From the IMG/VR virus record IMGVR_UViG_3300047470_000340, positions 1 to 31,520 of that record: a stretch of 31,520 nt of DNA. The stretch is one strand, 5' to 3'. This DNA is from a virus. Position numbers and translations under genes: made by a program. The notes under the pieces are model-generated. The model did no database searches. It was given only the letters and a program-made list of their open reading frames with translations, and was not told the origin of the DNA. Of the stretch, positions 1 through 8,788 are shown piece after piece (within the stretch, counting starts at the first letter, position 1; every line of letters starts with the position of its first letter).

Positions 1-66
1 AGGCAACGGTCTTGAAAACCGTCGACTGTAACAGGTCCATGAGTTCGAATCCCATCGCCTCCGCCA
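1..66 (+). tRNA. tRNA-Ser(UGA), 3' part (5' part lies before the window)
   Basis: The stretch contains an anticodon stem (6-10 with 18-22), a loop at 11-17 with anticodon TGA at 13-15, a long variable arm typical of serine tRNAs, a T-arm with TTCGAAT, and an acceptor strand CGCCTCC followed by G and CCA at 64-66. The D-arm and 5' acceptor strand lie before position 1, so completeness cannot be checked. The gene is followed by a strong terminator. Its 3' part is duplicated exactly at 4841-4900, which marks it as an integration target. Confidence 0.93.
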
Positions 67-90
67 TCTTTATACGACAAAGCCCTGATT
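7..90 (+). repeat. 84-bp direct repeat, copy 1 (attachment site in tRNA-Ser 3' end)
   Basis: Bases 7-90 are identical to 4841-4924. The repeat starts in the tRNA anticodon stem and ends in the left arm of the downstream terminator. Exact duplication of a tRNA 3' end is the hallmark of tyrosine-recombinase insertion. The two copies delimit the DNA between them as one inserted unit. Similarity continues beyond 90 at a lower level through the following small gene. Confidence 0.88.
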
Positions 91-109
91 ATTCAGGGCT
101 TTGTCGTTT
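75..109 (+). terminator. intrinsic terminator of tRNA-Ser
   Basis: A 14-bp perfect stem (75-88 with 93-106) around a TTAT loop is followed by a short T-run. It lies 9 bases after the CCA end. The equivalent hairpin after the second tRNA copy has mismatches in the stem. Confidence 0.85.
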
Positions 110-280
110 CCGGGGTTTGAGTTTTCGTTCGTGCTTCCAAGGATCGTTTCCGCATCTTTTCGGCCATTTCCGCAACTCGCCCGCAGAAACGACTTGAAAC
201 AGCTGCCATTCACTCCCCTTCCCCGCGTCCTGCCGACCTGCACTCCCGCGCTACGCTGACCTCAAAAAAGAGGATTCGCG

Positions 281-470
281 ATGCCACATTCAGACCTACT
301 CCCTCCCTTCTCCAGAAGCTCAACGAAAACCAACTCGCCCTCGAAGCAGCCATTCTGGAGCTTTCGAATTGGGTCGAGCAGCGAGGCGTGTTCGCAGCGC
401 CTTGGAAGCAATCGACCGAAATGAGGAATTCATCAAGATGACGCTTGCGGTGATGATGACGCCGGAGTGA
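281..470 (+). pseudogene. decayed copy of the 69-aa tRNA-adjacent gene
   Basis: This stretch aligns base by base with the intact gene at 5105-5314. It has the same ATG context (GAGGATTCGCGATGCCA) and the same CCGGAGTGA end. It carries a 1-nt deletion near codon 10 and a deletion of about 19 nt in the middle, giving 190 nt instead of 210, so the frame is lost. It lies at nearly the same distance from the tRNA 3' end as the intact copy. This shows that the duplicated block is larger than the att core. Confidence 0.85.
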
Positions 471-650
471 CTCTATCGGCCAGAAGCAGCCGTTCGATGT
501 GCCTAGAAGCCCCGGGGCGATTCACCTTGCTTAAATAATTCCTCCTAAATCTGGCAGTATTTCTCCCCATTCGGCTGCGCTCCCCCGTTCTGGCCCATAG
601 GGGCGGCAACTTGCACCTCGTGCGTCAGACTCCTCACTCAAGGAACAACC

Positions 651-2366
651 ATGCTTCAGGCTGCCACCGGAAAGCTCTTTACTGAGCCGCATAATCCCCA
701 AGTCAACACGCTCCGAGGAGTGGTTTACACCAACCTCGACCTGGGCAGTGTCGACACATTCAGCAGCGCAGTCGGAACGCTCAGCGCTTTTGACACAGTG
801 ACCACGCCTCACGCCCTGTGCTATGAGCTAAACGAACACATCGAGGGTACGCCTGCGGTAGGCCTCATAGCTTCACGCATGATGGGGGCGTACATCGATG
901 ATTTTGCGGACGTAGCCTCATTCGGATTACGAGCAATTTTCAGTCCTGACGTCCGAATCGCCGAGCGATTGCTGCACCTGCGGGCTCGCGTGGGTGAGCC
1001 GCACCCGAGTGAACGACTGACCCGATTCTACGAGCCATCGTTACGGGTGAACACCAAGGAGTTGGACGCATTCGCGGCGTTTACGGAACAGCTTATTGGC
1101 CTGAAACGCAGCAGCTACCAAAGCGTAATTAAGGCAATCAGATCCTACGTCGCCGCTGTTCACAGGATGAGCGATGACCTCGATCTGGCCTACACGCTGC
1201 TGGTCATGAGCATCGAATCGTTAGCTCAGGATTTCGATGGCTATCAGGTTGTTTGGGAGGACATGCCAACCGAAAAACGTGGACCTATCGACAAGGTTCT
1301 GGAGAGTCTCGAGGACGCAGACGCGCAGGCAGTCCGTAATGCCATCCTTGAAACAGAGCACTTGCGGCTGGGCCACCGCTTTTCCAAATTCATTCAGGAA
1401 TATCTGCCGGCGGACTATTTCTCCGCTCATGCGAGCAACGAAAAGCATCCGATCGGTAAGCGAGAGTTGCTGGCTGCGCTCAAGAACTTATATGGCACGC
1501 GTTCCGATTATGTACATACGCTCAAGCCGTTGACCAAAGAGTTTCTCCATTTCTCGGGCCACGGGGAAACGTATGCCGATCATGACAAGCTTATGTTCAC
1601 GTTCCAGGGCCTGTTCCGCTTGGTGCGCGCCGTAATTATGGAGTTCGTCGGCCGCGCCGACAAAATTGCTCATGAGCCCTGTTCATATGAGTATGACAAT
1701 CCAAGCGTGCTGAGGATCTCATTGGATCCCTCTATGTGGATCTATGCCCCCACAGGCCTGACTGCGGAAACCTGCGCACGATTCTTCGAAGGGTTGGTGG
1801 CACTCCTAAGCCAAGCCTTGGCGGATTTCCCCCATCGGCCATTGAAGAATTTGCGCCCGGTAGTAGAAGCAGGCTTTAAAATCAAGGATGGATTGAAGAA
1901 ATCTCCGAAAAATGCTCTCGTGGCATTCATCTACCTGAAGCATTACTACCTCGGCGGCGAACAAGGTGAGTCGTCACTGAAGAATGGCGATGTCTCGCTT
2001 CTCAACCAGCCCAGCCTGGAATCGCTCATTGCTCAGGCCATAGCGGGATCCGATACAGAGTGGCCGCCTTCTGAACATCTAAGGCACCTGAACATCTACT
2101 ACGGTCAATGCTTCAAACCTACAGGTATCAAGGTGCCGCTGGAGGTCGAAGCCTGCATGGCCCTCGCGCTGGTAGAGCGGTACCGAGTAGCAGGCCAATT
2201 CCAAGATGCAAAGGAAGCTTTGGCCGCCGCAGCAGAAGATTTCCCGAGGCTGCCTTGCATGAGGGAGGTTCAGCTTGACCCAGGCACCCCTATTCGCTGG
2301 CTTGAAATCATCTATCCGAAACGTGCGCCAGGAAAAATCTCGACACTGGAATGTCACGGTTTGTAG
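651..2366 (+). CDS. HEPN-domain protein (ApeA/Apea-like), candidate antiviral RNase or toxin
   Basis: This is a 571-aa soluble protein with no signal peptide or membrane segment. The ATG at 651 is preceded by AAGGAA seven bases upstream. The central part has the layout of a HEPN domain: a helix around residues 178-195 (LLVMSIESLAQ), then R284-S-D-Y-V-H289, an exact Rx4H motif that in HEPN RNases supplies the catalytic Arg and His. The N-terminal 170 and C-terminal 250 residues are not recognised; the C-terminus is helical and could be a sensor or partner-binding part. HEPN proteins of this general shape (known family members: ApeA, RloC-C, Abi proteins) cleave RNA on phage infection. It is the first gene of the att-bounded island and is followed 245 bp later by a nuclease-like gene. 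The HEPN assignment is fairly firm; the antiviral role is inferred. Confidence 0.72.
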   Translation: MLQAATGKLFTEPHNPQVNTLRGVVYTNLDLGSVDTFSSAVGTLSAFDTVTTPHALCYELNEHIEGTPAVGLIASRMMGAYIDDFADVASFGLRAIFSPDVRIAERLLHLRARVGEPHPSERLTRFYEPSLRVNTKELDAFAAFTEQLIGLKRSSYQSVIKAIRSYVAAVHRMSDDLDLAYTLLVMSIESLAQDFDGYQVVWEDMPTEKRGPIDKVLESLEDADAQAVRNAILETEHLRLGHRFSKFIQEYLPADYFSAHASNEKHPIGKRELLAALKNLYGTRSDYVHTLKPLTKEFLHFSGHGETYADHDKLMFTFQGLFRLVRAVIMEFVGRADKIAHEPCSYEYDNPSVLRISLDPSMWIYAPTGLTAETCARFFEGLVALLSQALADFPHRPLKNLRPVVEAGFKIKDGLKKSPKNALVAFIYLKHYYLGGEQGESSLKNGDVSLLNQPSLESLIAQAIAGSDTEWPPSEHLRHLNIYYGQCFKPTGIKVPLEVEACMALALVERYRVAGQFQDAKEALAAAAEDFPRLPCMREVQLDPGTPIRWLEIIYPKRAPGKISTLECHGL

Positions 2367-2460
2367 AAGGGCGATGGGTTTGGCCAGGTGGTAGGTGTGA
2401 TCGAATTGCCATTCGCAAAGGATGTCAGCTATTGACCCGATTACTGCCCTCTTCGAAGGG

Positions 2461-2511
2461 CAGTGGATCGAATGCAGTCCCTAGTGATAGGCAGAAATCG
2501 GCCAAAAGTGG
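2461..2511 (+). repeat. degenerate Pseudomonas-type intergenic repeat, copy A
   Basis: The block TGGATCGAATGCAG...GATAGGCAGAAATCGGCC resembles the block at 4209-4247 (TGGGTCGATTGCAG...GACAGGCAGAA). I recall similar 'gggtcgattgcag / gacaggcagaaatcggcc' blocks between genes in many Pseudomonas chromosomes. It sits in the 245-bp gap between the HEPN and nuclease-like genes. No hairpin terminator with a T-run is visible in this gap. Confidence 0.5.
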
Positions 2512-2611
2512 TAGTTACTAAGCAACCTGGTGAAAATTTTGAACGCCACCGCCTTATTTTGCCGACAATTGCACTGAACGCACTGTGCGCTCGCTAACAT
2601 GAAGGGAATAT

Positions 2612-4072
2612 ATGGGTGAGGCAAAACGCAGGGGCACGAAAGCACAACGAATAGCCGCCTTGCTAGATGAAAGCGGCGTTGTTCATATGACCGCTGAGCG
2701 ATACAACGCATTCATCGCTTGGACGCGCTCGCCGATTGCCAACGCCGTAGGTAATGAGCTGGAGTTTTTCTCCGACAAAGCGGAGACGCTGATCGGCGTT
2801 CTGATCGAGGACCGATTTGATCGGGACTTTGGCTTTGTAATTCTTGGGCGAGACCTCAAAGGTCGCTTTCGTTGCATCGACGTAAACTGCAGCATGACCA
2901 GAACAAACGCGCGCTACGCGCTATTCGCTTCGTTAAGAAAGCGCATCGCGAGTGGCGAAACGGTCTTCTCTCAAGGTGACGAGAGGTCCGACAAAGCAGG
3001 TGTTGCCCTTTTTCAAACGAAACTGCCCGAGGAGCAACAGCACCCTGCTTTCCACATGTTGTGCACTCGCCCCCATTGGGTGCCCGCACGGGCGATCATG
3101 TCCGAAATGATGCGGCACTTTGTTGACGTTGATGGCAACTTCGTAGAGCAATTTCAAACCACCGCATTCGATGCACGAATTTGGGAGCTGTATCTCTATG
3201 CAGCGCTTTTGGAGCTTGGCCTTTTCGTGAACAAAGAGCACGAGGCGCCTGATTTCGAAGTGAGCGATGGGCAAAACAAAGTGTTCATTGAAGCCGTCAT
3301 CGTTGGACCATCGCCGAATGATCCCCCGCTCGAACCGCCAAAGAACTGGATGCCCGTTATGCGGACTCCAGAAGAGGTCAAAGAGCTATTGAGGACCCGC
3401 GTACCTATTCGATTCGGTAGTGCGCTTTACTCAAAGCTCAACCGGAAGACTAAATATTGGGATTTGGAGCACGTTAAGGGAAATCCACTCGTCTTTGCAG
3501 TCGCTGATTTTCACGAGGACCAGTCCATGATTTGGACTTCGCCGGCGCTTCTTGAATATCTCTACGCTGTTACTCATGAGTTTTTCCATGACGATGCGGG
3601 TCAGTTAGTAATCACACCATTGAAGATCGAAACACATGAGTACCAAGGAAAGGTAATTCCTTCAGGCTACTTCTTTCAGCCCGGAGCGGAAAACGTGAGC
3701 GCAGTGTTGTTCTCGTCGTCCGGGACAATCTCGAAGTTCAATCGCATGGGACGGCTTGCAGGCTTTGGTCTCGCGAACCAGCGAATTTTCCGAACAGGCC
3801 TAAAGCATCGCCACGATCCAAACGCCGCAATGCCTGACTCATTCTTCCATGAAGTGAAGCAAGGCACCGTGACTGAGACTTGGGCCGAAGGGCTTTCTAT
3901 GTTCCACAACCCCAATGCGAAGCACCCAATTGATCCAAATATGTTTCCCGGCATTGCTCATTATTGGTTTGTTCACGGGAAAGTCAAAGCCTGGCTGCCT
4001 GAATTTCATGTGTACCACTCTTTTACTTGGAACATGATCACTACCGAGGAAGATGACGCAGGTGAGCAGTGA
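2612..4072 (+). CDS. hypothetical protein with PD-(D/E)xK-like nuclease core
   Basis: A 486-aa protein. The ATG at 2612 follows AAGGGA with six bases of spacing. The N-terminus is basic (MGEAKRR). The middle shows a restriction-endonuclease-like signature: W191-E192 in a helix (WELYLYAALLELG), then P-D214-F, then a strand ending E227-A-V. This matches helix-E, PD and ExK motifs, except that the usual Lys after the second acidic residue is Val. The C-terminal half has several His-rich segments (for example THEFFHDD) and is not recognised. It follows the HEPN gene in the same direction inside the island, with its own gap, so it may be separately transcribed. It could be an active variant nuclease or an inactive binding fold. 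The function is not established; a defence role is suggested only by context. Confidence 0.68.
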   Translation: MGEAKRRGTKAQRIAALLDESGVVHMTAERYNAFIAWTRSPIANAVGNELEFFSDKAETLIGVLIEDRFDRDFGFVILGRDLKGRFRCIDVNCSMTRTNARYALFASLRKRIASGETVFSQGDERSDKAGVALFQTKLPEEQQHPAFHMLCTRPHWVPARAIMSEMMRHFVDVDGNFVEQFQTTAFDARIWELYLYAALLELGLFVNKEHEAPDFEVSDGQNKVFIEAVIVGPSPNDPPLEPPKNWMPVMRTPEEVKELLRTRVPIRFGSALYSKLNRKTKYWDLEHVKGNPLVFAVADFHEDQSMIWTSPALLEYLYAVTHEFFHDDAGQLVITPLKIETHEYQGKVIPSGYFFQPGAENVSAVLFSSSGTISKFNRMGRLAGFGLANQRIFRTGLKHRHDPNAAMPDSFFHEVKQGTVTETWAEGLSMFHNPNAKHPIDPNMFPGIAHYWFVHGKVKAWLPEFHVYHSFTWNMITTEEDDAGEQ

Positions 4073-4208
4073 GGGCTGCGCATACTTGCTGGAACGTCGC
4101 TAAACGCCTTCGGTCTAATCTCATTTCGAATATCAATGGCTGATTTCCACTTGTGAGTTCAGTGCGCTGAAGCCGGCTGAAGATTGGTATCTACAGAAAG
4201 ACGACCGG

Positions 4209-4247
4209 CAATGGGTCGATTGCAGCCCTCAAGACAGGCAGAATTTT
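4209..4247 (+). repeat. degenerate Pseudomonas-type intergenic repeat, copy B
   Basis: CAATGGGTCGATTGCAGCC followed by GACAGGCAGAA matches copy A at 2461-2511 in order and orientation. It lies in the 363-bp gene-free stretch 4073-4435. That stretch otherwise holds only the TTGGTAC direct repeat and the leader of the next gene. Confidence 0.48.
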
Positions 4248-4373
4248 TAGTCTGGTTGCGCTAAGGTAGAATTACACCGCGATTCTAAAGGGGTAAGGCA
4301 AAGTAACAATAGTCAATGAATCCGGGCACTTGCCTACTCAGGCGTACCCGGCTTTCACCTGCTTTACACGGTC

Positions 4374-4395
4374 ATTGGTACAAAAATTGGTACAA
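4374..4395 (+). repeat. tandem 10-bp direct repeat ATTGGTACAA (12-bp period)
   Basis: Two exact copies (4374-4383 and 4386-4395) are separated by two A residues. They sit 41 bp before the start of the 106-aa gene and about 450 bp before the second att copy. Short direct repeats of this type are known as arm-type sites for tyrosine integrases and as operators. Which applies here cannot be told from the sequence. Confidence 0.45.
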
Positions 4396-4435
4396 GCTTT
4401 ACTCCCCTCCTACCGCTCAAAGGAATGACAAAGGC

Positions 4436-4756
4436 ATGACTAAGCGCTTCGATCTCACCACTCGGGATGGCTTAAAAGAGGCCATAGATGGTATTCAGGA
4501 CAAGCTTGGGTTCATGCCGATCTTATGGGTTGCGGGTAAGATCATAGACAGCACCTCGCCGGCTAGCGCTGTTTCAAAGCAAGCCGAAGCTGCCAGTGAA
4601 ATCATTCGCGAGGGGCAGCGAAGTGGTGTTGATAGCATGACGATCGTTATGGACGAGAAAGCGGGCGCTCACTTTAGCGTGCCAATCGAAGGTGTTGAGA
4701 TATCTGCATCGCTTGGAAGCAAAGGCAAAGTAACTATTGATGTGAAGTACAAATAG
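4436..4756 (+). CDS. 106-aa hypothetical protein
   Basis: I chose the ATG at 4436 because AAAGGAA lies just upstream. The longer reading from 4316 would add 40 residues of unlikely composition (WYKNWYK) over the TTGGTAC repeats. The protein begins MTKRFDLTTRDGLKEAI, has an Ala-rich helical middle, and ends in alternating hydrophobic residues (VEISASLGSKGKVTIDVKY) that look like a small beta sheet. It has no signal peptide and only one moderately hydrophobic segment (LGFMPILWVAGKII). It is the last gene of the island before the second att repeat. I do not recognise the family. It might be a small partner or immunity protein of the two larger genes, but nothing in the sequence proves this. Confidence 0.6.
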   Translation: MTKRFDLTTRDGLKEAIDGIQDKLGFMPILWVAGKIIDSTSPASAVSKQAEAASEIIREGQRSGVDSMTIVMDEKAGAHFSVPIEGVEISASLGSKGKVTIDVKYK

Positions 4757-4840
4757 CGCTAGTGCCTGGCTCAAAAAACGCCTCGACCTATGATGCCATC
4801 TTGAACAGGAATATTTCTGACCTATAACAATTATGTTTGT

Positions 4841-4900
4841 CGGTCTTGAAAACCGTCGACTGTAACAGGTCCATGAGTTCGAATCCCATCGCCTCCGCCA
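4841..4900 (+). repeat. tRNA-Ser(UGA) 3' fragment = direct repeat copy 2 (att)
   Basis: Bases 4841-4924 are identical to 7-90. The preceding sequence (ATGTTTGT) does not continue the tRNA, so this is a truncated tRNA copy left by integration, not a functional gene. It marks the junction between the island and the prophage. Confidence 0.88.
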
Positions 4901-4908
4901 TCTTTATA

Positions 4909-4943
4909 CGACAAAGCCCTGATTTTTCAAGGCTTTGTCGTTT
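4909..4943 (+). terminator. imperfect copy of the tRNA-Ser terminator
   Basis: A stem CGACAAAGCC / GGCTTTGTCG with a T-run matches the hairpin at 75-109 but has lost perfect pairing near the loop. It is part of the duplicated att block. Confidence 0.7.
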
Positions 4944-5104
4944 CTGGGGTTTGGCAAAAAATTCGTCAGCTGACATGTGTTCCAAAACTATTTTGGAAGC
5001 GTTCCATAACTCAGCTCCAAATCCCCTCTTCCGGCGTCCTGCCGATAGTTAAGAAACCTTCATGTAACACGGTGCTACGCTGACCTCATAACCGAGGATT
5101 CGCG

Positions 5105-5314
5105 ATGCCAAACTCAGACCTGCTCCCCTCCCTACTGTTCAAGATCAACGAAAACCAGCTCGCCCTGGAAGCCGCCATCATGGAACTTTCGAACTGGGTC
5201 GAGCAGCGCGGCGCGGCCGACGTCGCTGATAATGTTCGCGGTGCGTTGGACACCATCGATAAAAATGAAGAGTTCATCAAGCTGACGCTCGCGGTGCTGA
5301 TGACGCCGGAGTGA
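5105..5314 (+). CDS. 69-aa hypothetical protein next to the att site
   Basis: The ATG at 5105 is preceded by CCGAGGATTCGCG. The product is a small acidic helical protein (NQLALEAAIMELSNWVEQ) ending LMTPE. It has no signal peptide or membrane segment. It lies about 200 bp after the tRNA fragment, just as its decayed sister (281-470) does after the tRNA. The pair therefore behaves as a conserved passenger of elements using this tRNA, or as a host gene duplicated with the att. I recall similar short proteins in Pseudomonas but know no function for them. The region 4944-5104 holds no other gene. Confidence 0.7.
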   Translation: MPNSDLLPSLLFKINENQLALEAAIMELSNWVEQRGAADVADNVRGALDTIDKNEEFIKLTLAVLMTPE

Positions 5315-5421
5315 CTGCGCTCTGCGGTCATCACTCTGGCCCCTAACGCCCCTTATAGCAAAACAATCGCTTATTTGTGGTTAAGCAAACGGAAGACCGG
5401 GGCGTTTCAGTGCGGCTCTTT

Positions 5422-5661: not shown

Positions 5662-6078
5662 GTGATCGTGAATTGGGAAGGAATGCTGCCGATTGAAGGT
5701 ACGGTGATCGTTGTTGAGGATGACCTGACCCTTCGAGCACTGATGACGGACATCCTGTTTGAGATTGGCGCCCAGTCTCTGGCTTTTGAGACGGCTGACG
5801 ACGCGCTGACGTACATGTTGCAAACCCCTTTCCACTGTCCGCTTGTGATCGTGGATCAGGCGCTACCAGGTCAGATCCAAGGGATGGAATTTATTGAGAT
5901 AATCCAGAGTCGTCGGCCTTGGATTGGCTCCATTCTCACGTCAGGTTATCTGATCGATCCAAGTGACTTACCAGTCCATACGATCTATCTGCACAAGCCT
6001 TGGTCCTTGGATGACCTGGTGATTTCGGTGACCACTGCGCTGCAGCCCGGTGTCCCCATCATTAAGAAATCACCCTGA
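5662..6078 (+). CDS. stand-alone response-regulator receiver (CheY-like) protein
   Basis: A 138-aa protein made almost only of a REC domain. The acidic pocket is E19-D20-D21 after a hydrophobic strand (TVIVVEDD), the phospho-acceptor is D65 (VIVDQALPG), the switch residue is T93 or S94 (ILTSGY), and the invariant lysine is K112 (LHKPW). No output domain follows. The GTG start at 5662 is supported by AAGGA eight bases upstream; the later ATG at 5683 has its purine run too close. Such single-domain receivers act by protein-protein contact or in phosphorelays after phosphorylation by a histidine kinase. No kinase is nearby, so it would have to use a host kinase. Its place at a prophage end suggests lysogenic conversion of host signalling, which is inference. 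Confidence 0.88.
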   Translation: MIVNWEGMLPIEGTVIVVEDDLTLRALMTDILFEIGAQSLAFETADDALTYMLQTPFHCPLVIVDQALPGQIQGMEFIEIIQSRRPWIGSILTSGYLIDPSDLPVHTIYLHKPWSLDDLVISVTTALQPGVPIIKKSP

Positions 6079-6905: not shown

Positions 6906-7484
6906 ATGTGCGGACGACTTTCCCAATACGATGGCATCCACGACTTCGTCGCGGCACTCAGCATGCCCAACCCTCTGGTCAACAGCACCGGTGAGCGACC
7001 TTTCGAGCGGTATAACGCCGCCCCGACGACCCAGGTCGCCATCTTTCACCAGGAAGGTGAATACTTGCACGCCGACATGGTGCGCTGGGGATGGCGCCCG
7101 CACTGGGCCAAGGACCGCGCAGCACCGATCAATGCCAGGGTGGAGAAAGTCGCGCACGGGCCTTTCTTCCGTGCCATCTGGCCGCACCGGGCAATCATTG
7201 CGATTAACAACTGGTTTGAATGGGTAGATGAAGGCGGACCAAAGAAGCAGCCCTACCTGATCCGCCGTCGGGACCGGTCGCCGATATTATGCGCGGCGAT
7301 CGGCCAATACCCGAACCCCGAGCATGAGCCCAGTGAACACGACGGCTTCGTGATAATCACCGCGGACAGCGTTGGCGGCATGGTGGACATCCACGACCGC
7401 CGGCCGGTGACGCTATCCCCCGAACTGGCACGGGAATGGCTTGACCCGGCCACGCCAAAGGAGCGCGCCGAACAGATGGTGTGA
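6906..7484 (+). CDS. SRAP (YedK/HMCES-like) abasic-site protein, C-terminus frameshifted
   Basis: The protein starts MCGRLSQY: Cys2 after the removed Met is the residue that forms a covalent link to abasic sites in single-stranded DNA. The family's other key residues are present: N76 (INARVE), E105 in WFEW, and H163 (DIHDRRPV). At 7482 a TGA ends the frame after 192 aa. The expected C-terminal tail (starting HQGEP) continues in another frame from 7484 to 7603. Removing one TG from GGTGTGATG restores a full protein of about 230 aa, so a 2-nt duplication is the likely cause. The active-site part is complete, but the lost tail belongs to the fold, so activity is uncertain. The gene sits two bases after the coiled-coil gene behind a LexA box. 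Confidence 0.9.
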   Translation: MCGRLSQYDGIHDFVAALSMPNPLVNSTGERPFERYNAAPTTQVAIFHQEGEYLHADMVRWGWRPHWAKDRAAPINARVEKVAHGPFFRAIWPHRAIIAINNWFEWVDEGGPKKQPYLIRRRDRSPILCAAIGQYPNPEHEPSEHDGFVIITADSVGGMVDIHDRRPVTLSPELAREWLDPATPKERAEQMV

Positions 7485-8224: not shown

Positions 8225-8788
8225 ATGTTCGAAGGAAAAAGCGACTCAGAAGTACAAACCATGTGCTTCGAATTGATCCAGAAGGAAAATGACAGGGGCT
8301 CCGCATTGCTGGCTGCGGTGCTTGCCGAGAACATATTGCAACAACTGCTTTCTGCACGACTTCTTCTTCCTTGCGGCCAGGAAAAACTTTTAGATGGGTT
8401 CAACTCTCCGATAGGCACGTTTTCTTCAAAAATTGAACTGACTTACCGGCTAGGAATTATCCCGAAAGGTTTAGCTGACTTGCTAAACGGCCTGCGGAAG
8501 ATAAGAAACATTTTTGCTCATGAAACTATCGCTGACTTCGAGACGCCATCGGTCGCAAGTAAAACAGAGTCCGCGTTTCAGACTAACCCTATTCACTACG
8601 AAGACTTCATTAATAACTGGTCTGCGGATATCAATAAGGTTTTTGTAGAGCATGGCGTTGAACACGTTGTGAATGCGAAAACCATCAAGCTTCGTGTTAG
8701 ATTCAACAACTACTTCGCGCACGCCATCATGACTTTGAATGCCATCCAGAGGATAAATACCAGAATTACACCGATTTTCCAGATTTAA
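8225..8788 (+). CDS. MltR-like HEPN protein, likely prophage moron
   Basis: A 187-aa protein; the ATG at 8225 follows AAGGAG by eight bases. The N-terminal half matches the MltR (mannitol operon repressor) type: DRGSALLAAVLAENILQQLL, then FNSPIGTFSSKIELTYRLGI, then R94-N-I-F-A-H99, an Rx4H motif as in HEPN folds. The C-terminal 80 residues are not recognised. Base composition is clearly AT-richer than the surrounding phage genes, and the direction is opposite to the late operon, both typical of a recently gained moron. Its TAA overlaps the spanin's TAA on the other strand (TTAA, 8785-8788). No mannitol genes are nearby, so a role as metabolic repressor is unlikely; phage-encoded defence or a toxin is possible but inferred. 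Confidence 0.78.
   Translation: MFEGKSDSEVQTMCFELIQKENDRGSALLAAVLAENILQQLLSARLLLPCGQEKLLDGFNSPIGTFSSKIELTYRLGIIPKGLADLLNGLRKIRNIFAHETIADFETPSVASKTESAFQTNPIHYEDFINNWSADINKVFVEHGVEHVVNAKTIKLRVRFNNYFAHAIMTLNAIQRINTRITPIFQI

Follow-up and report, generated by a model that had tools for sequence, protein, structure and literature searches.

The virus record IMGVR_UViG_3300047470_000340 (here the window, that is, the whole 31,520-nucleotide stretch that was analysed) opens with an interval, positions 67-4840, in which three open reading frames (ORF1, ORF2 and ORF3) lie between two copies of a tRNA-Ser(TGA) attachment site (att). The most probable reading, to which we give a probability of about 0.7, is that prophage ends at the tRNA-Ser(TGA) att, in a zone used for cargo, have left this interval as a composite remnant, and that ORF1 and the PD-T7-1 gene (ORF2) are independent defence genes within it. 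Read along the sequence, the order is an att with a type II arm and a decayed copy of P69 (a 69-aa gene of the prophage family), then ORF1 and the PD-T7-1 gene, next ORF3 with the end that bears the folE-type att, and finally a tRNA-Ser att with a type I arm, P69 and the prophage. An initial annotation, made from the letters alone, had described an integrase-less island carrying a compact defence cassette. The locus is real and defence-related but composite: a PD-T7-1 gene, a candidate HEPN defence gene and a prophage gene in stacked prophage ends.

Stacked prophage ends at tRNA-Ser(TGA)

The two att copies (Table 1) are identical over 84 bases, far above chance, and the likeness extends to 113 bases at 97% identity (7-119 and 4841-4953). 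The repeat holds the 3' part of the tRNA only, from the anticodon stem to the CCA (64-66), plus a hairpin. ARAGORN finds no whole tRNA in the window; it calls the same sequence tRNA-Ser(tga) in L028, L034, L041, L050, L062, L085 and L007, and in genome loci. Three genes on one strand occupy the space between the copies, and their products gave no match above threshold to any Pfam family, Phage_integrase and other recombinase families included (the search covered these three products and not shorter or overlapping ORFs). Thus, the exact tRNA repeat around three genes with no recombinase, as first described, is borne out, and so is the mobile context, with its att repeats and prophage ends. Of the features of an autonomous integrative element, the flanking att repeats are present, and no integrase was found among the three products. 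A scan for promoters and terminators came out near the shuffled background, and the intergenic motifs after ORF1 (2486) and after ORF2 (4233) bear a weak likeness to each other.

Why should the interval be regarded as composite? Along the two copies, identity alternates between 97.3% (the first 113 bases), 43.5% (the next stretch), 76.8% (P69 and the sequence upstream of it) and 42.8% (beyond), and the repeat is therefore not one long recent duplication. The 76.8% stretch (246 aligned columns of DNA) pairs a decayed P69, in which every frame is broken, with 5074-5318. Further inside the interval lies an att of another type: window positions 4268-4399 are 93.9-97.7% identical over 132 bases to the prophage ends in L031, L038 and L073. 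In five of the six genome loci fetched by the core pattern, this core continues into GTP cyclohydrolase I (judged by eye; PF01227 at E 1.1e-75 in L231), and in the sixth (L228) it continues into a prophage-type arm. On the contig that also holds L038, a Smr-domain gene (Pfam E 3e-25) precedes the folE-type site (L213). Because the folE-type site sits between the two tRNA-Ser att copies, the interval stacks three ends, of which the outer two are of tRNA-Ser type and the middle one is of folE type. The decayed P69 and the inner folE-type att go beyond what the initial annotation had reported, and they do not support its picture of a minimal element that was inserted whole.

Both att types are found at the ends of related prophages. 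P69 relatives occupy 499 stretches among viral contigs; in the best 79 loci kept from these, to which all counts of P69 loci refer, a tRNA-Ser att is present in 16 and a folE-type att, whole or in part, in seven (20 bases only in L075). In L036 and L081, a folE-type att also lies beyond a P69 copy, as does a match of 67 bases in L071.

The arms behind the two tRNA-Ser copies differ as well, with two TTTCCGCA sites behind the outer att and two GTTCCA[AT]AAC sites behind the inner one. The GTTCCA[AT]AAC kind was present at all 14 counted P69-side ends of viral loci (two sites each, but one in L067), and the TTTCCGCA kind follows tRNA-Ser or a partial copy of it, with two sites, in L191, L192, L193, L194 and L196. 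Since the motifs differ, the outer and inner att would mark the starts of elements of two separate classes. A series of integrations and deletions joined at att cores could have left end cargo in place and removed the rest, including the integrase. If the interval still moves, it would do so together with the adjoining prophage or via an integrase in trans, because either att copy could be the left end of the prophage.

Could the outer copy (7-90) instead be the true left att of a single prophage, with the interval as its ordinary left-end cargo and the inner copy as a vestige? Related prophages do hold cargo between P69 copies inside one att pair, as in L041/G416, with att at 225, P69 at 489 and 2111, an integrase match at 39959 and att at 43089. 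However, the motif that marks the P69-side ends follows the inner copy, and the outer copy is followed by the other one; we consider this explanation possible but doubtful. A deleted type I prophage that kept both its ends was also considered, and rejected for this locus since there is no integrase-side arm at 4757-4840 (such arms were recognised by eye in L145, L135, L036, L190 and L196); L190 does fit that description.

Several points weigh against the composite interpretation. The two arm classes are defined by short motif counts, and 15 of the 30 other genome loci counted (L159-L188) had neither motif, the remainder being divided between the TTTCCGCA kind (eight) and the GTTCCA[AT]AAC kind (seven). 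The right arm of the interval (4757-4840) fits neither class, which leaves the right junction unexplained. The record stops at the head genes, and the prophage integrase and right att fall outside it. The functions given to ORF1 and PD-T7-1, moreover, are predictions from sequence and models.

Table 1. Features of the interval and of the adjoining prophage end
Feature	Position	Strand	Basis and remarks
tRNA-Ser(TGA), 3' part	1-66	+	ARAGORN calls in related loci; 5' part precedes window
att copy 1	7-90	+	84-bp exact repeat, 97% on to 119
Type II left arm	147-174	+	two TTTCCGCA arm-like sites; scripted motif count
Decayed P69 copy	281-475	+	frameshift and deletion; tblastn pieces 301-387 and 381-467 in different frames
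ORF1	651-2366	+	571 aa, candidate defence RNase; beta-rich N-terminus, HEPN-like domain with R284...H289 (residues 128-340, approximately), C-terminus of TPR/ARM type
ORF2	2612-4072	+	486 aa; protein of the PD-T7-1 anti-phage family, PD-(D/E)xK-like core
folE-type att core and arm	4268-4395	+	TTGGTACAA repeats at 4375-4395; core corresponds to folE 5' end
ORF3	4436-4756	+	106 aa (146 aa from upstream start 4316); rare small prophage gene, function not assigned
att copy 2, partial tRNA	4841-4924	+	left end of neighbouring prophage
Type I left arm	4979-5010	+	two GTTCCA[AT]AAC arm-like sites; scripted motif count
P69	5105-5314	+	69-aa gene at att end of prophage family; PHROG 12397, E 4.1e-38, function not assigned

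Recurrence of att-bounded intervals

Intervals of this kind recur at the same tRNA. The genome set consists of 398 genomes of one genus, drawn from a larger group, with Pseudomonas sp. BBP2017 (G001; locus L005) as its chosen centre and itself included. A query of positions 4760-4925 matched 305 of the 398. Among the matches listed, with at most two candidates scored per genome, there were at least 19 att pairs on one contig and strand: seven shorter than 20 kb (G367, G106, G209, G037, G375, G184 and G238), 11 with lengths of 40-57 kb and a single one of 125 kb. The search for PF00589 covered the seven short-interval genomes and G276, and the family was absent between the copies in six of the seven short intervals; G184 has two matches inside its interval, which also contains a third att copy, and one match falls in the 40-kb interval of G276. 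The contents vary, including an OLD-like ATPase (L192) and a KAP NTPase with a 206-aa integrase-family protein (L193). In L189, positions 1305-3275, a DUF2252 gene lies in a 1.8-kb interval that runs from tRNA-Ser(TGA) to a partial copy and has no PF00589 match. Islands at the same tRNA in L191, L192, L193 and L194 have TTTCCGCA-type arms at both ends (the right end of L192 by eye), with PF00589 absent in three of the four.

Such observations raise the question of whether the interval is a living non-autonomous element, made up of att and cargo only, whose excision and integration at tRNA-Ser depend in trans on a prophage integrase, much as for a satellite. The 84-bp cores are identical even though copy 2 has ceased to be a complete tRNA gene, att-bounded intervals lacking PF00589 recur among the matches listed, and L191, L193 and L194 have one right-arm type in common. 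The interval in the window, on the other hand, has a right end with arms of neither class, a decayed P69 at its left end and a folE-type att inside. Nor was a second copy found: the 26-base right junction is absent from the viral contigs by exact scan, the first 25 kb of the window have no near match in phage records, and the genome rows among the matches listed align only from about the att core onward. We therefore regard a living element as unlikely, and the composite remnant as the better description.

Cargo is gathered at P69 ends more generally. In 14 of the 79 P69 loci, P69 is matched at two or more separate places with other genes in between, some of the matches being incomplete or diverged. 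This cargo includes a TIR protein (L032); eight other cargo proteins from between P69 copies had no PADLOC match up to E 0.001. Mobile elements with a set position for variable cargo, defence genes included, are also described in the P2 hotspots (PMC9519451) and in Pseudomonas islands (PMC12629846). What sets the present cargo apart is its place at the tRNA-Ser att end, with P69 copies and stacked att sites as landmarks; neither "PD-T7-1" nor "tRNA-Ser" appears in the main text of PMC12629846. The stacking of att sites suggests how defence genes could be gathered and lost at prophage ends that have no integrase themselves.

The PD-T7-1 gene

ORF2 is a full-length homologue of the known anti-phage family PD-T7-1. 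The PADLOC profile of that name matches residues 26-477 over profile positions 4-449 of 452 at E 2.9e-175, and the view that the cassette could not be matched to a named system has to be given up. The second PADLOC match was PD-T7-5 (E 1.5e-52), and PHROG 8571 matched at E 1.5e-106. The nuclease-like core that had been noticed in this product stands: E192, P213-D214-F215 and E227-A228 are invariant across seven aligned PD-T7-1 homologues (alignment A3), with the usual lysine of the PD-(D/E)xK core replaced in ORF2 (E-A-V). Presumably, the protein attacks phage by way of this PD-(D/E)xK-like nuclease. Unrelated chains returned by a profile search of the Protein Data Bank (PDB) had E values of 0.33 or higher and were treated as chance.

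The family was found by functional selection in E. coli, with protection stronger against T-even phages than against T7 (PMC9519451). Other reports state that it protected against a Teseptimavirus and shrank T7 plaques (PMC12409345), list it among the PD(D/E)XK nucleases (PMC10952713) and mention a low-scoring RmuC-like prediction (PMC10270631).

Relatives of ORF2, at any identity, occur in 36 of the 398 genomes, the nearest at 77% (L197); a protein scan of the viral contigs with ORF2 alone as query found none. The six relatives inspected (L197, L100, L216, L220, L221 and L222) have differing neighbours and lie in phages (L216, L222), in a region resembling an integrative and conjugative element (L100) and on plasmids, one of which has adjoining AbiE and TIR genes (L221). 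In Morganella phage IME1369_01 (L222, 1-4378), the relative lies less than 3 kb from the integrase and the predicted attP side, again an att-end position. ORF2 thus resembles the described family in its full-length profile match, conserved core and prophage-end position, homologues being depicted in a prophage or a defence island (PMC9519451, legend to Fig. 4e); it differs in lying in a phage-end remnant, at 77% identity to its nearest relative in the genome set, and in being known from sequence.

A candidate HEPN defence protein

That ORF1 carries a HEPN domain is well supported by its motif and predicted fold. Profile searches against Pfam, PADLOC 2.0.0, NCBIfam and PHROGs gave nothing of weight (TPR_14 weakly at E 0.17 and TetR_C_24 at E 0.23). 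Homologues are found in Pseudomonas sp. BBP2017 (83%) and MT835554 (58%), and in ten plasmid records, three of them covering only 19% of the query. Eight of the 398 genomes have relatives (G001, G089, G251, G268, G284, G294, G341 and G370), and in four of these (G251, G089, G370 and G294) the matches are partial. In viral contigs, a protein scan with ORF1 alone found no relative, and a scan with its alignment found five. The hosts range from Pseudomonas to Bradyrhizobium plasmids.

The Rx4H motif claimed for the first product was upheld. It reads R284-S-x-Y-x-H289, in keeping with the Rx4-6H of the HEPN superfamily, and R284, S285, Y287 and H289 are invariant in two overlapping seven-sequence alignments (A1, A2). 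The motif lies at the end of helix 270-290 in the full model (143-163 in the domain model), in agreement with the end of helix 3, where it is expected in HEPN domains (PMC3710099). The full model (predicted local distance difference test score, pLDDT, 80) has a beta-rich N-terminus followed by helices, the C-terminus aligning with TPR and ARM repeats. The 50 VIA-align rows for this model fell for the most part on residues 358-546, where they paired with TPR/ARM-like chains. A separate model was therefore made of the HEPN domain (residues 128-340, pLDDT 82.7), and its best matches were HEPN chains. At the top stood 4nqf (Z 9.0, root-mean-square deviation 4.0, 124 aligned) and AbiV 9bj7 (Z 8.7, 4.1, 134). 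Nine of rows 1-14 (Z 9.0 to 5.4) are HEPN chains by title or paper, the others of the nine being 5fsh Csm6 (6.8), 2hsb (6.7), 3o10 sacsin (6.7), 1wol (6.6), 6m6u (6.4), 5yep (6.3) and 7bxo (5.5); ZapD came next at Z 4.8. The five remaining rows have no HEPN title (1ufb, 3mfn, 2jpu, 3c18 and 2q00), and we take some of these to be HEPN structures too.

What speaks against this assignment? VIA-align cautions that a Z below about 13 for helical bundles may mean no more than a common arrangement, and the best value here is 9.0. Foldseek against the PDB gave nothing significant (best E 0.16 at full length and 0.63 for the domain), and no HEPN Pfam model reached its cut-off on ORF1, the homologue L210 alone touching HEPN_Apea at E 0.18. 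E189 is invariant and lies in the helix before the insert, but it stands in the context E189-SLA-Q193, so that Ex3[KR], the acid-in-helix-2 pattern of many HEPN families, is absent. A profile search of PDB sequences returned nothing for ORF1 up to E 1; NF1-type chains found with the HEPN part alone had E values of 0.13 or higher and were treated as chance.

Is ORF1 a defence protein? Neighbours of its relatives were inspected in 17 loci, and defence genes were found in nine, seven by PADLOC (run on 20 hand-picked neighbours from eight loci) and two by annotation. The PADLOC families were RmrA (L005), GajA and GajB (L099), PRTase_III-A (L200), Dsr1 with an AriA/Old-like protein (L202), a TIR-like protein and a methyltransferase (L201), a caspase (L006) and PDC-S31 (L209); the annotated ones were a CBASS cyclase, SAVED and AbiV (L217) and AbiEi/AbiEii (L218). 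Some reservations apply here as well: the neighbours run through PADLOC were picked by hand and the nine of 17 comes without a background rate, no defence family was found by PADLOC among the hand-picked neighbours in L207, and L006, L201 and L209, with partial ORF1 matches, are the weakest of the nine. By eye, similar 229-aa proteins with an RNxxxH-like motif adjoin ORF1 relatives in L005 (9775-10464) and L199 (6969-7658); the L005 copy had no PADLOC or Pfam match.

The protein might also be a non-defence RNA-binding or regulatory HEPN-like protein. Non-catalytic HEPN domains exist (PMC3710099), and the hand-picking of neighbours leaves room for this. The catalytic-type R and H, however, are kept down to 25% identity, and defence genes lie near more than half of the relatives inspected, so that a non-defence role seems rather improbable. 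ORF1 is a good candidate to represent a new family of HEPN defence proteins. It would be an RNase held in an inactive state; a product of infection, sensed by the beta-rich or the TPR-like part, would release it to cleave RNA and so stop both phage and cell.

The closest working analogue met in the literature examined, likened by description and not by sequence, is Tha, a HEPN RNase of an S. aureus prophage that is triggered by tail proteins (PMC11087260). Both are prophage-borne proteins with Rx4H, but Tha-1 has 301 aa and a C-terminal HEPN domain, whereas that of ORF1 is central in 571 aa and followed by a TPR/ARM-like C-terminus. ApeA-like proteins likewise have a beta-rich N-terminus before the HEPN domain (ApeA-NTD1, PMC3710099); in contrast, the beta-rich part of ORF1 is shorter and a C-terminal helical part is added, and the ApeA profile gave no Pfam or PADLOC match to ORF1 up to E 1. 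AbiV and the HepT-type toxins (6m6u, 5yep and 7bxo, from HEPN-MNT systems) align with the ORF1 domain, but at 8-12% identity, and large flanking parts are a further difference; AbiV is described as typically lacking the H of the motif (PMC3710099). ORF1 may already fall among recently described HEPN systems, for example the four mentioned in PMC13092281. Among the matches listed by literature searches (at most 15 of up to 288 each), there was no account of the ORF1 family or of such a tRNA-Ser cargo zone, which does not exclude one elsewhere.

Matched by none of the four profile collections, yet found near Gabija, Dsr1, CBASS, AbiE and RmrA, this HEPN-like family is a candidate for a new single-gene defence system. 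A more ambitious proposal, which we offer tentatively and as something of a conjecture, is that ORF1 founds an undescribed, widespread family in which a single protein, with a beta-rich N-terminus, a HEPN RNase and a TPR-like C-terminus, acts as phage sensor, and that the tRNA-Ser/P69 end is a cargo-exchange zone stacking att sites of different integrases (tRNA-Ser type I, type II and folE), in which whole defence cassettes are gained and dropped by site-specific recombination.

One system or several?

The initial annotation had joined the three genes into one compact defence system, which might consist of a sensor, a nuclease and a small regulator in a self-contained att-bounded cassette. They do lie on the same strand within one pair of att copies, and HEPN and PD-(D/E)xK-like proteins are both known in defence (PMC9519451). 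However, their homologues are not seen together: the eight genomes with ORF1 relatives and the 36 with PD-T7-1 relatives have none in common, where about 0.7 would be expected by chance, and ORF3 was found in one genome. The 77% relative of PD-T7-1 and the 83% relative of ORF1 have other neighbours than in the window. The genes are separated by gaps of 245 and 363 bases, with the folE-type att in the second of these. PD-T7-1 is a one-gene system without a fixed partner, and it has a PADLOC model of its own. A three-gene system is thus unsupported by co-occurrence and, in our judgement, very improbable; zero against 0.7, admittedly, neither excludes a joint system nor shows avoidance. PD-T7-1 and ORF1 would, on the composite reading, act as two independent single-gene defence systems.

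How, then, does the proposed defence role stand? It is likely for ORF1 and ORF2, but ORF3 is read as a prophage accessory gene. Homologues scattered singly outside mobile or defence contexts, or the lack of a HEPN or nuclease match, had been named as signs against a cassette. The homologues are indeed scattered singly, yet many of them lie within such contexts, and features of both the HEPN and the nuclease type are present.

ORF3 gave no match up to E 1 in Pfam, PADLOC or NCBIfam, and none in phage and plasmid records. In viral contigs, a first scan found nothing and a profile scan three loci (L223, L224 and L225), all in prophages, where the ORF3-like gene adjoins an endolysin-like gene (by eye) on the opposite strand; its single genome was also found by profile search. 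It is best regarded as prophage accessory cargo, with no role assigned.

The neighbouring prophage

From 5 kb onward, the 31.5-kb record is a tailed prophage, with Pfam matches for tape measure, capsid and Clp protease. Its left end has the order att, P69 and accessory genes, and the full order of att, P69, prophage, integrase and att is visible in two records of the family (G416/L041 and G407/L025). Judging from the prophage relatives, the host is probably of Pseudomonas type. G+C content is 52.1% over 480-4755, against 59.7% over 8800-31520. The accessory end includes a stand-alone response-regulator receiver domain (5662-6078, Pfam E 6.1e-08). An SOS-response-associated peptidase (SRAP; 6906-7484, E 1.8e-43) has relatives in L067 and L123. 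A 187-aa gene at 8225-8788, in which a motif resembling R-N-x-x-x-H occurs and which DUF4145 matches below threshold (E 0.00093), is possibly a second HEPN-type gene of the same prophage.

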